In this document: piece after piece, positions 20,761 through 64,000 of the stretch
How the letters are laid out: each line of letters opens with the position of its first letter
Position numbering within the stretch: the stretch's first letter is position 1
Origin: Spirochaetales bacterium
GTDB taxonomy: Bacteria; Spirochaetota; Spirochaetia; JABEVK01
Direction: 5' to 3'
Assembly (NCBI GenBank): GCA_947478845.1
Contig: CANJXC010000010.1
Coordinates: forward strand, 62,001-126,000
Length of the DNA: 64,000 bases
Translations under genes and position numbers: made by a program
Notes under the pieces: model-generated
What the model was told of the DNA's origin: nothing
The model's input: only the letters and a program-made list of their open reading frames with translations
The model's database searches: none

Positions 20761-22559
20761 GGGCTCATCTCCTGGCGAGGGAAGGTGAGGGTTACTGTGG
20801 TTCCTTTGCCAGCGCTACTGGAAACGACCAAACCATAATCTTGCCTGTACTGAAGTTGAAGCCGGGCGTGGACGTTTCTCAGTCCGATGTGCCCGACGTT
20901 GCCCAGGGGATCGGATTCCACGCTGGCTAAGGTATGTTCCAGTTGCGCCAAAACCTCGGCCTCGATGCCCTTGCCGTTATCGGTCACCGTTAGCTCCACG
21001 TTTCCTTCTTTCAAACCCCCCTTCAAACTCAGCTTGGCCCCGGTATTCATCAGGGCGAAACCATGGCGCAAGGAGTTCTCCACCAGAGGCTGAAGGATGA
21101 ACTTGACGGCGGCTAGTTCAAGAATTGCTGGGTCAATTTCATAAGAAACCTCAATACGGTCTCCGAAGCGGGTCAACTGGATATCCAGGTAGTCCTTTAC
21201 GTACCGGAGTTCTTCCGAGAGCCTGACCACGAGTTTTCGGCCTCCGTGGATGCAGTAGCGGAATATGCCGGCCATCTTGCGAACGATGGCCAGAACTTCG
21301 TCGCGGCGCCCTTGGTTGGTGAGCGAGTTGATGGTCTCGAGGGTGTTGTACAGAAAATGGGGATTAATCTGCTGCTGCAAAGCGTAGAGTTCGGCCTCGT
21401 GGGTCAGAATCTTGCTTTGCATCAGCTCGTTCACCAAAAAGTCCATCCGGGTGATCATGGCGTTAAACGAGCGGTTCAAGTTACCCAGCTCATCGTTTCC
21501 ACCCGGTTGGGCACGCACCGTAAGATCGTCTCCCTCGACCCGCCGCATCAGCGACATCAACCGCGTGATAGGCCGGGTTATCTGGCCGGAAATGACAAAG
21601 GCGGCCAAAGCACTCAGTGCCAGCGCCAGCGCCAGCAAGGCAAGGCCTCCAAACACCACGCGGTCGCGCCCTAGGCGTATGCGGTCGCTAGAACTCAGGA
21701 AGTACAAGTTCCATCCTGTGCTTCTGGAGAGGGCCGGCTGAACAAAATACTCGTGGTTGCTTAAGGTGATGCGGTTGCTCCCGAGCTTGGGAAACGCGTT
21801 GAGGGTTTTTCCCAAATCGGATGGCTTAGCCTCTGCGGAAGCGAGGGCCGAGTTGTAGACGATTCCTCCATCGGGCTTCACGATCACCAGTAAATCGACC
21901 ACCTTGTCGGCCACGTTTCGCACGAGGTTGTCGAAGAAATCGACCGTCGAGGTGATGACGATGAAGGCATTGTCGGGTTTGGCACCGATGACGACGGCCC
22001 GGGAGTCAAGAGCTACCGCGAAGCCATAGCTTCGGCTGGGGTGGTGGCCAAGTTCCGGCGCATCGACAACTTTGACCATCGACCCGGAGGACTTCATGTT
22101 GGCGAAGAAGCTGCTGCGGACAAACTCCTTGTCGTCGAGGTAGGTTGTGCTCCCTTGGCTGTCGCTGGAAAGAATATAGTTGCGGTCGCGGATGATGAGA
22201 AATAGATCATTGTACGAACGGTTGGCAACCAGAGACAGCATTAAGTTGTTGAGGCTGTTGAAGTTGGCATGACGCTGGGAATCGTCGACATAGCTTTCCT
22301 GCAGGAACTGGCTATATTGCTTTTCCAAGACCACCGTCATCATCGTGTTCTTCATCTCGTCCACATAGAAATCGAGATGGTTGACCAACTGGTTGGAGAT
22401 TTTCCCCAGGTAGTATTCCGACTCGAGGGTCATGGAAGAATCGATTTGCCGCGTGTAAAAAAAACCTACCCCCACGATGAGCAGGGTGAGCAGGACCATG
22501 TAGGAGAGAAACAGCTTGAAACGGATACCATAACCTAATTTCAGTCCTCGAAGCTGCAT
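20757..22559 (-). CDS. Sensor histidine kinase, YesM-like (HPK8 type)
   Basis: A 600-residue membrane sensor. One TM helix lies at about residues 15-35 (LFLSYMVLLTLLIVGVGFF). A large extracytoplasmic sensor of about 260 residues follows, then a second TM helix (VFGGLALLALALALSALAAFVISG), a HAMP linker (ITRPITRLMSLMRRVEGDDLTVR), the His_kinase domain with ALQQQINPHFLYNTLETINSL (phospho-accepting His) and the HATPase domain (LQPLVENSLRHGF, TVTDNGKGI, GHIGLRNVHARLQLQY). It pairs with the downstream response regulator. It probably senses a sugar, or the loaded binding protein, outside the membrane. Confidence 0.93.
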   Translation of the reverse strand: MQLRGLKLGYGIRFKLFLSYMVLLTLLIVGVGFFYTRQIDSSMTLESEYYLGKISNQLVNHLDFYVDEMKNTMMTVVLEKQYSQFLQESYVDDSQRHANFNSLNNLMLSLVANRSYNDLFLIIRDRNYILSSDSQGSTTYLDDKEFVRSSFFANMKSSGSMVKVVDAPELGHHPSRSYGFAVALDSRAVVIGAKPDNAFIVITSTVDFFDNLVRNVADKVVDLLVIVKPDGGIVYNSALASAEAKPSDLGKTLNAFPKLGSNRITLSNHEYFVQPALSRSTGWNLYFLSSSDRIRLGRDRVVFGGLALLALALALSALAAFVISGQITRPITRLMSLMRRVEGDDLTVRAQPGGNDELGNLNRSFNAMITRMDFLVNELMQSKILTHEAELYALQQQINPHFLYNTLETINSLTNQGRRDEVLAIVRKMAGIFRYCIHGGRKLVVRLSEELRYVKDYLDIQLTRFGDRIEVSYEIDPAILELAAVKFILQPLVENSLRHGFALMNTGAKLSLKGGLKEGNVELTVTDNGKGIEAEVLAQLEHTLASVESDPLGNVGHIGLRNVHARLQLQYRQDYGLVVSSSAGKGTTVTLTFPRQEMSP

Positions 22560-62056: not shown

Positions 62057-62455
62057 CTAGTTCGCCCAGTTCTCCAAGTGGAGGCCCTCAATCCTTGAGA
62101 GCTCTCTGACATTGTTGGTCACCAAGACTCCATTGTAGAACTTCGTTGTGGCCGCGATAAGGAGATCGTTTGGCCCAACAACTCTTCCCGAGGACTCGGC
62201 GAGGCATCTGAGGTCCGCGTAGACATAAGAAACCTGGTCATCAAATGACTTGATCTCAAATGTTTGTAAAAACGCCTCTACCTTTTCGAGATTGCTCTCG
62301 CGTTGGTTGCTTTTGTAGGCTCCGAGCAGGAGTTCTGCCTTTACAACGGACGGGATCTTGATTTCATCGGGCGATAAGGCCAAAAGTTTGGCCTTGATTT
62401 TCGGAAACTTGCCCTTCAGATAGCAAATGCATGTGTTGGCATCGAGGAAGTACAT
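62057..62455 (-). CDS. vapC: PIN-domain toxin (VapC type), module 1
   Basis: A 132-residue ribonuclease toxin. PIN acidic residues are visible: Asp5 (MYFLDANTCICYLKG), Glu in SVVKAELLLGAYKS, Asp in GPNDLLIAATTKFYNGVLVTNN. The FLDAN…I.YLKG start and the VTNNVRELSRIEGLHLENW end are close to chromosomal VapC toxins of the FitB/VapC clade that cut initiator tRNA or other RNAs. The gene is coupled to its antitoxin (TGATG). Confidence 0.92.
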   Translation of the reverse strand: MYFLDANTCICYLKGKFPKIKAKLLALSPDEIKIPSVVKAELLLGAYKSNQRESNLEKVEAFLQTFEIKSFDDQVSYVYADLRCLAESSGRVVGPNDLLIAATTKFYNGVLVTNNVRELSRIEGLHLENWAN

Positions 62456-62685
62456 CAGAACTCCTCTCGTCTAGAGTCGGTATCCGACTGGAGGTCAACA
62501 GGTCGATAGAACGACTCATCGGAAACAGAACCGAAAAGCGCCTCGAAGTTCTTTGGAAAGACGGGCTCGACTTTCGCGCGAATCTGCTCTGCAACCCACT
62601 TGGAGATCGAAACATTTTGTCGTGCTGCGGCGCTCTCAACCTTGCGAAGTGTAGATTCATCAATGTACAGGGAAATCTGTGGCAA
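62455..62685 (-). CDS. Antitoxin of module 1 (ribbon-helix-helix)
   Basis: A 76-residue antitoxin starting at a TTG with GGAGAAAGGA upstream. Residues 1-45 (PQISLYIDESTLRKVESAAARQNVSISKWVAEQIRAKV) form a ribbon-helix-helix DNA-binding domain; the acidic tail (ALFGSVSDESFYRPVDLQSDTDSRREEF) would fill the toxin's active site. It presumably binds the palindrome at 62730-62751 and represses its own operon. Confidence 0.88.
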   Translation of the reverse strand: MPQISLYIDESTLRKVESAAARQNVSISKWVAEQIRAKVEPVFPKNFEALFGSVSDESFYRPVDLQSDTDSRREEF

Positions 62686-62751: not shown

Positions 62752-62784
62752 ACCATCTCTCCCTCACCTCCGCCCGAAGGGTCC

Positions 62785-62884
62785 GCCTAACGCTGTTTTA
62801 ACCTGCGTTTTGGGTGGCGCGGTTGTTGCCGAAGGCAAGAACCGTGACGCACAAATAAGTCAGGTTGAACTGAATGTTATGTGC
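62785..62884 (-). repeat. attC-like recombination site
   Basis: Leftward strand: the site starts GCACATAAC (R''-like), has AACCTG / CAGGTT as matching L''/L' boxes, a central stem GGTTCTTGCC / GGCAACAACC around a TTC loop, and ends GCGTTAGGC. The final GTTAGGC (62791-62785) fits the R' core consensus GTTRRRY exactly. The two outer arms pair except for a one-base length difference (8 versus 9 bases between TAAC and AACCTG), the extrahelical asymmetry expected in attC. Length 100 bp is within the attC range. It lies 19 bp past the 3' end of toxin module 2, as in a gene cassette. Confidence 0.7.
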
Positions 62885-62903: not shown

Positions 62904-63287
62904 CTAAACTGATTTTCCTTTTTCGAAATATCGCACCCCACTCAGCGACCTGAAATGGGCATCCTGGGTCCAGAGCGTGCAACCAAGCCTCTGTGCGGTC
63001 GCATAGATGGTACTGTCAGCCATGGCTAAGCCCAGGTCGCGACCCAGTTTTGCAGCATAGATCGCCATATCTCCATCGAGCGACACCACTTGCCCCTGTT
63101 TCATATGTGCAACGGCAAGCAACGCCCTGTCTTCATCCAGTTCAATAAGAAGCTTCTTGAACACCTCATACAGCGTGATCGCTGGGACGACAAGATCCGA
63201 AGTCGCTTGGACCACCGATGCAACCTGCTCCCCAACATTGCTGCCGGCGAAATACTCCAGCCAGCAAGAAGAATCAACAATGTTCAT
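62904..63287 (-). CDS. PIN-domain toxin, module 2
   Basis: A 127-residue PIN protein with Asp5 (MNIVDSSCWLEYF), Glu in ITLYEVFKKLL, Asp in LAMADSTIYATAQRLG and Asp in LWTQDAHF, the four acidic metal-binding residues of active PIN ribonucleases. Its start overlaps the antitoxin stop by 4 bp. The attC-like site follows its stop. Confidence 0.92.
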   Translation of the reverse strand: MNIVDSSCWLEYFAGSNVGEQVASVVQATSDLVVPAITLYEVFKKLLIELDEDRALLAVAHMKQGQVVSLDGDMAIYAAKLGRDLGLAMADSTIYATAQRLGCTLWTQDAHFRSLSGVRYFEKGKSV

Positions 63288-63490
63288 AGTCGGTCACGGT
63301 CCCTCTCAATGGTTGTATCGATCCCCAGAAATATGCCTTTCATGGCGGCCATGGGACGAATTGGGACAAGTTCAATTCGACTGCCAAAGGAAATGACCTC
63401 AACGGCAGTACCAGCAAGAAGTCCCGATCGTTCCCTTACTTCTTTTGGGATAACAACTTGAAACTTGCTGGACACAACGACTGTATTCAT
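63284..63490 (-). CDS. AbrB/SpoVT-type antitoxin, module 2
   Basis: A 68-residue swapped-hairpin DNA-binding antitoxin: VVVSSKFQVVIPKEVRERSGLLAGTAVEVISFGSRIELVPI is a textbook AbrB/MazE domain, followed by a short toxin-binding tail. GAGGTG lies upstream of the ATG. It is translationally coupled to the PIN toxin and expected to repress the pair. Confidence 0.92.
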   Translation of the reverse strand: MNTVVVSSKFQVVIPKEVRERSGLLAGTAVEVISFGSRIELVPIRPMAAMKGIFLGIDTTIERDRDRL

Positions 63491-63572: not shown

Positions 63573-63806
63573 CTACGTGCTTTCCTCTTCCGTTTTCAGA
63601 TCTGGCACTTTCTCTAAAATCTCGGAGAATCTCGACTTACTCCCTCTAGCAGCCCTTGCCTTGATGTAGGTTTCGGTTTCCAAAGCTGTGACCTTTTCGG
63701 CGACAGCCGCAGCAACAAATTGATTGATAGAAATGCTGTCTTCTCTCGACACACGCTTCAGTGACTCATGAAGCGAGTCCGGAATTCTGATACTTAATGT
63801 GCTCAT
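63573..63806 (-). CDS. Ribbon-helix-helix antitoxin-like protein, module 3
   Basis: A 77-residue protein beginning STLSIRIPDSLHESLKRVSREDSISINQFVAAAVAEKVTALE, an RHH domain of the HicB/Arc type, with a charged tail (SRFSEILEKVPDLKTEEEST). Its ATG overlaps the stop of the PIN gene upstream (ATGA), so here the toxin comes first and the antitoxin second, the reverse of modules 1 and 2. Confidence 0.85.
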   Translation of the reverse strand: MSTLSIRIPDSLHESLKRVSREDSISINQFVAAAVAEKVTALETETYIKARAARGSKSRFSEILEKVPDLKTEEEST

Positions 63807-64000
63807 GTGTTTCCCCCTAGTGTTTTCAGAAACTCGAATGGACTAACAATTTCTATTCCAAAGGACTTTGCGGCTCTAAAGTCTTTCTTGTTGTAAGAAA
63901 CAATGTACGGACTTTCCGATGCTACCGCCACTTCCAGAACATGGTCATCAAAAGGGTCTTTTAGGATTGGCCGCCACAAGTAGTAAATCTCTGTCGGACG
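63803..64000 (-). CDS. PIN-family toxin (COG1569 type), 5' part outside window
   Basis: The last 65 codons of a leftward gene reading …YYLWRPILKDPFDDHVLEVAVASESPYIVSYNKKDFRAAKSFGIEIVSPFEFLKTLGG. The DPFDDHVLEVAVAS and YIVSYNKKDF stretches match the C-terminal half of the putative toxin component, PIN family; the Asp pair in PFDDH supplies metal ligands. The N-terminus with the first Asp lies beyond base 64000. It is coupled to the RHH gene that follows. Confidence 0.82.
   Translation of the reverse strand, partial: RPTEIYYLWRPILKDPFDDHVLEVAVASESPYIVSYNKKDFRAAKSFGIEIVSPFEFLKTLGGNT

Follow-up and report, generated by a model that had tools for sequence, protein, structure and literature searches.

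The segment 62785..62883 of the minus strand (R'' to R') is a genuine attC site of a chromosomal integron, and it very probably marks the distal end of a sedentary integron that is now breaking down. The window, i.e. the whole 64,000-nucleotide stretch that was analysed, is G000:C10:62001-126000, part of a 2.99 Mb draft genome in 22 contigs that is 99.75% complete by marker genes. On the best reading, the host and the Treponema-like genomes considered below belong to different spirochaete families, and the integron is a known kind of system found outside Treponema. The assignment of the site draws on its sequence, on two covariance models (R1 and R2, both of which include it as a training sequence) and on homologous sites elsewhere in the genome.

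On the minus strand, the site is laid out as R'', a 6-base spacer, L'', an arm, a central stem, a second arm, L', another 6-base spacer and R'. The R'' box ACATAAC (62877..62883) has an intact AAC triplet and a single mismatch to RYYYAAC, outside AAC, and the R' box GTTAGGC (62785..62791) is an exact GTTRRRY, within which the crossover point presumably lies between G and TT. Sites C10b and C8b have the exact R'/R'' consensus on both sides. The L'' box TTCAACCTG (62861..62869) pairs with the L' box CAGGTTAA (62798..62805), leaving one extrahelical base in L'': an additional C on the top strand, which reads G on the bottom strand and accounts for the one-base asymmetry. The same extra base is found in C10b, C8b and the sites of relatives, across which the L helix is 97-98% paired. 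The pairs of the central imperfect stem, CGGTTcTTGC-CTTCG-GCAAcAACCG (62820..62844), vary with compensation among relatives. All the attC-like features listed in a preliminary description of the element, namely: the exact R', the near-match R'', the paired L boxes, the central stem and the one-base asymmetry, are present.

The bottom strand of the site, which is the + strand of the window, folds better than its shuffled versions (z = -3.7, 0 of 200 shuffles as good), compared to z = -2.0 for the minus strand of the element. When the R and L boxes are forced to pair, the bottom strand lies below the top strand by 6 to 10 kcal/mol in 4 of 4 full sites of this genome (bottom/top: -18.1/-11.8, -19.4/-9.3, -12.7/-5.8 and -13.4/-6.1 kcal/mol). 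It should be noted that the window site, when folded without constraints, takes a minimum-energy structure other than the full attC hairpin. Because the AAC/GTT triplets, the L boxes and the extra base are all kept, the site could probably still recombine, given IntI in trans. The window contains a single copy of the 20-mer that spans R' and the flank to its right, and shuffles contain none. An Rfam search of the window returned no match, and a plasmid search for similar DNA found none.

The cassettes flanking the site are toxin-antitoxin pairs of the VapBC type, three of which lie in this stretch, all on the minus strand. As had been described, the site follows the 3' end of such a pair in the right orientation and on the same strand: the gene whose 3' end points toward it encodes a PIN-domain (VapC-type) toxin (62904..63287; Pfam PF01850, E 3e-16), partnered by a MazE/AbrB-like antitoxin gene (63284..63490; PF04014, E 5e-10). 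Homologues of this PIN toxin occur in 7 genomes, including its own, among 198 genomes of the class. The third pair consists of a HicB/RHH-like antitoxin (63573..63806; PF05534) and a PIN_3 toxin (63803..64000; PF13470) that runs past the window edge, the whole gene being L007:5803-6228. Downstream of the attC lies the last pair, in which an antitoxin-like gene (62455..62685), with a weak, below-cutoff match to Pfam DUF6364, precedes a PIN-domain (VapC-type) toxin gene (62057..62455; PF01850, E 7e-13). No attC follows this last toxin, and the covariance models give no further significant match in the window, the match at 22076 (E 0.14) being due to chance. Model and intI searches thus confirm that the window holds neither a second site nor an intI gene. 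Around the nearest named homologue of the SulP gene (72%), in Spirochaetes bacterium bin_199, the flanks lack an attC as well as matches to the neighbouring 540-aa gene and to the toxin-antitoxin genes.

Toxin-antitoxin pairs are also array cargo in the Vibrio-type superintegrons, where they are thought to stabilise the arrays, and, given what is established about integrons (PMC8618304), the pairs described here may help to keep the array in place. The Vibrio set of pairs is a different one from the VapBC/AbrB-PIN pairs of this genome, and the sites here are few.

Beyond the right edge of the window, a second full attC lies at G000:C10:127287-127384, 2.5 kb from the window site, and the contig stops 165 bp past it. 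Starting from that end, the minus strand of C10 carries a partial ORF, an attC, a NERD-domain gene, a short ORF with a degenerate R', the RHH/PIN_3 pair, the MazE-like/PIN pair, the window attC and the last PIN pair, with the cassettes consecutive and in one orientation. Of the two possibilities first raised for the element, the end of an array therefore holds, since beyond it the C10 array has one more cassette-like VapBC pair but no attC, and the lone site does not, since the second site is so close.

A DNA search of the same genome gives copies at C10:127283, C8:141904, C8:146043 and C11:500, near contig ends (C10 ends at 127549 and C8 at 146266). In total, there are four full attC sites, two on C10 and two on C8, in addition to a partial site on C11. 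Half or damaged sites are found on C8, C9, C10, C11, C16 and C18, and most of these sit where a contig ends. R1, which was built from the four full sites of this genome only, matches them at E ~1e-30 to 1e-29, the partial C11 site at 3e-13 and a short site on C16 at 5e-6, and gives a weak match on C21. Searching with a pattern composed of R' and the flank to its right yields further half sites (C8:140990, C11:1833, C18:1003 and C10:126370); the reversed control pattern matches once. The C9 half site reads GTTAGGTGGACGCCTTCGGC, and on C18 a Phd/PIN pair comes after the R' half site and heads toward the contig end.

The C21 match (C21:9382) was rejected as a site, as it falls in the uncut copy of a gene whose C16 version matches it only as far as the crossover point. 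The C16 gene (L083:4063-4450) and the C21 copy (L084:4061-4443) are 84% identical up to GCGTTA, after which C16 continues with the cassette start TGTGGACCCTTCGGG. Judged by its sequence, the junction looks like a cassette insertion at a secondary site, the gene's own sequence being attC-like.

The models also find arrays in other genomes of the class. R1 gives 21 and 16 matches in two Treponema-like genomes, G049 and G029, respectively, and most of these form arrays downstream of an intact intI and on its strand (intI at 1456381 and 929716; R1 arrays at 1458505-1482062 and 933773-988552). The arrays start within about 4 kb of intI by R1, and 1.2 kb from it by R2, an extended model of 27 sites that gives 36 and 45 matches in G049 and G029, respectively. 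R2 matches 16 of 60 genomes of the class, including 6 of the 7 in the host's own family, and in a resistance integron on a Klebsiella plasmid it recovers the attC that separates blaGES-7 from aac(6')-Ib. In the R2 alignment, which was fitted to the structure and so favours pairing, 93% of the cells are paired and 14 of 28 pairs show changes on both sides; sliding the strands by 1-3 columns as a control leaves at most 48% of the cells paired and at most 7 pairs with changes on both sides.

What became of the integrase is indicated by fragments at two places, each on the same strand as the cassettes. Those on C8 are three colinear pieces ahead of the first cassette, flanked by glyS and an R' site, namely: RYADALITRHYSPRTQRSY, GQEGRHHLDPSIL and NRGPGGVRSPLDGL, which correspond to N-terminal, central and C-terminal regions of IntI (63% over 19, 62% over 13 and 65% over 17 residues). 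Their individual E-values are weak (best 0.006), and they are identified as an intI remnant because of their order, strand and place. The remnant is followed by GTTAGGCGGACGCTTCGGGC and then by an APH-family kinase gene that is part of the C8 cargo. On C9, positions 1-405 encode NLDRAKRPIRLPNVLTRDEVKLLLNFLEPNLQLTGL, which matches the IntI of five genomes of the class (35-43% identity over 38-47 residues, best E 6e-5); this remnant follows typA and is itself followed by a half site and then a cassette start. By sequence, both GACGTTAGGCGGAC after the C8 pseudo-intI and GAGTTAGGTGGAC on C9 could be attI or half attC. The two separate intI remnants point to two array starts, more than a single simple integron accounts for. 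A search for full intI returned the C9 fragment and weak tyrosine-recombinase matches on C13 and C18; the latter were discarded, since 14 control genomes match likewise at that threshold. The genome does contain further attC sites and traces of the integrase, as the preliminary description would have led one to look for, and no intact intI was found in its draft assembly.

The other six genomes of the family (G001-G006) were also surveyed. Their only intI match at E <= 1e-30 is a broken gene in G006, which is followed by ccdAB and then by an attC. Among these fragmented assemblies, attC matches occur in 5 of 6 and an intact intI was found in 0 of 6, and it is possible that the integrase was lost family-wide.

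In the reading that we favour, which draws on what is established about integrons (PMC8618304), an IntI integrase would have captured the cassettes and built an array whose cargo includes toxin-antitoxin pairs, the NERD-domain gene and, on C8, the APH-family kinase. The integrase gene would since have eroded to the fragments after glyS on C8 and after typA on C9, with transposase genes settling among the sites and the array becoming fixed, so that the integron is probably immobile at present. With attC sites in the majority of the genomes sampled from a second family of the class, and integrases found there only as remnants, the history of gain and loss becomes testable.

The same remnants bear on two other explanations. 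Because contigs break inside arrays, an intact intI could sit in unassembled sequence; the integron would then be functional and the C8 and C9 remnants old duplicates. Several contigs do end in or beside arrays, the sites are well preserved and there are two array starts, yet we regard this as unlikely: the genome is nearly complete and yields no intact intI, the C8 pseudo-intI sits exactly at the platform position, and the rest of the family, most of it with attC matches, offers only the broken G006 gene. Quite improbable, in our view, is that the sites constitute a CALIN (a cluster of attC sites lacking an integron integrase) that arose when an integrase working in trans inserted cassettes off target, with no resident platform. 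Such insertion would disperse half sites as observed, and the C16 gene, cut at G|TTA and continued by a cassette start where the C21 copy runs on, has the footprint expected of a secondary site; however, the two pseudo-intI platforms of the genome offer a simpler origin for the arrays, and the C10 cassettes run consecutively in one orientation. Finally, although the copies are nearly identical in their central stems, it is scarcely credible that they represent an ordinary palindromic repeat of the REP or MITE type, interspersed in the genome and similar to attC by chance, as the R and L boxes stand in attC order, the copies follow cassette-type genes with a pseudo-intI before the first C8 cassette, and a model derived from the copies recovers known arrays beside intI as well as a resistance-cassette attC.

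The degraded chromosomal integron proposed here can be compared to those already described. As of 2013, Treponema was the sole spirochaete clade described as having integrons, with intI and the cassettes on the same strand and with attC sites lacking intI also in T. phagedenis (PMC3607928). The present system shares with the Treponema chromosomal integrons (T. denticola type; PMC3607928) the R and L boxes with a protruding base, the TTCAACCTGAC...GCAGGTTAA core and an intI on the cassette strand. It differs in that its sites are about 98 nt, whereas those of Treponema are mostly 63-68 nt (PMC3607928), and in its occurrence in another family, its integrase fragments at two places and its toxin-antitoxin cassettes. 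Cassettes rank toxin-antitoxin genes among their most frequent cargo by function (PMC8618304). The two C10 sites 2.5 kb apart, with no intact intI seen, resemble a CALIN (PMC8618304), but there are intI remnants elsewhere in this genome, and contig ends limit a strict assignment to that class. It has also been proposed, in later work, that Spirochaetes are a source of some resistance-cassette attC sites (PMC8352920).

A further feature is found at the start of the cassettes. Right after R' of the window site, the minus strand carries a mini-hairpin, CCC-TTC-GGG (62773..62781), followed by GGAGG, as seen by comparison of cassette starts. Cassettes of this genome begin with GGACCCTTCGGGC or similar directly after R', and in relatives the letters differ while GAC and a small hairpin stay (GCC-TTAC-GGC, CTGCCC-TTC-GGGCAG, CGCCCC-ACT-GGGGCG and CGGC-TAAA-GCCG). 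The hairpin is seen in the first 24 bases after R' at L007, L008, L018 and L083 and at the Treponema-like loci, often just upstream of the ribosome-binding site, and is missing at most sites of G031, G011, G050, G055 and G030. In a set of 53 distinct cassette starts, these 24 bases fold with a mean energy of -5.61 kcal/mol vs. -3.58 kcal/mol for dinucleotide shuffles (sd of means 0.23). Windows further downstream give -0.7 to -1.6, in part because of their lower G+C. By a loose rule that sometimes takes a non-obvious stem, a hairpin is present in 42 of these 53 starts, a set of related cassettes mostly from two Treponema-like genomes, compared to a mean of 29 and a maximum of 36 in shuffled sequences; the starts contain 30 distinct stems.

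That GAC and a hairpin usually open a cassette, with a variable stem whose pairing is kept, is possibly a new detail; among the titles and abstracts retrieved on cassette expression or on Treponema cassettes, none describes such a hairpin. Our suggestion, made tentatively, is that the cassettes of this lineage carry a so far unnamed element after R' that may insulate translation or shape the integrase site. By guess, the hairpin might keep the folded attC upstream from interfering with translation of the cassette gene or, alternatively, shape the single-stranded site on which the integrase acts. If it does have a role in expression or recombination, it would be a new cassette part.

Two kinds of mobile or repeated sequence were also observed around the sites. 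From translations examined by eye, IS3-type transposase genes lie between the two C8 attC sites (L008:14819-15935) and at the start of C11 (C11:272 onwards). A short interspersed sequence, AACTGATAGGAACTGTGATC, has 8 copies at <=3 mismatches (reversed control 0), namely: C4:130, C8:143910, C11:1794, C14:59489, C16:9404, 11725 and 11908, and C17:55994; one copy is 20 bases from the C11 half site.
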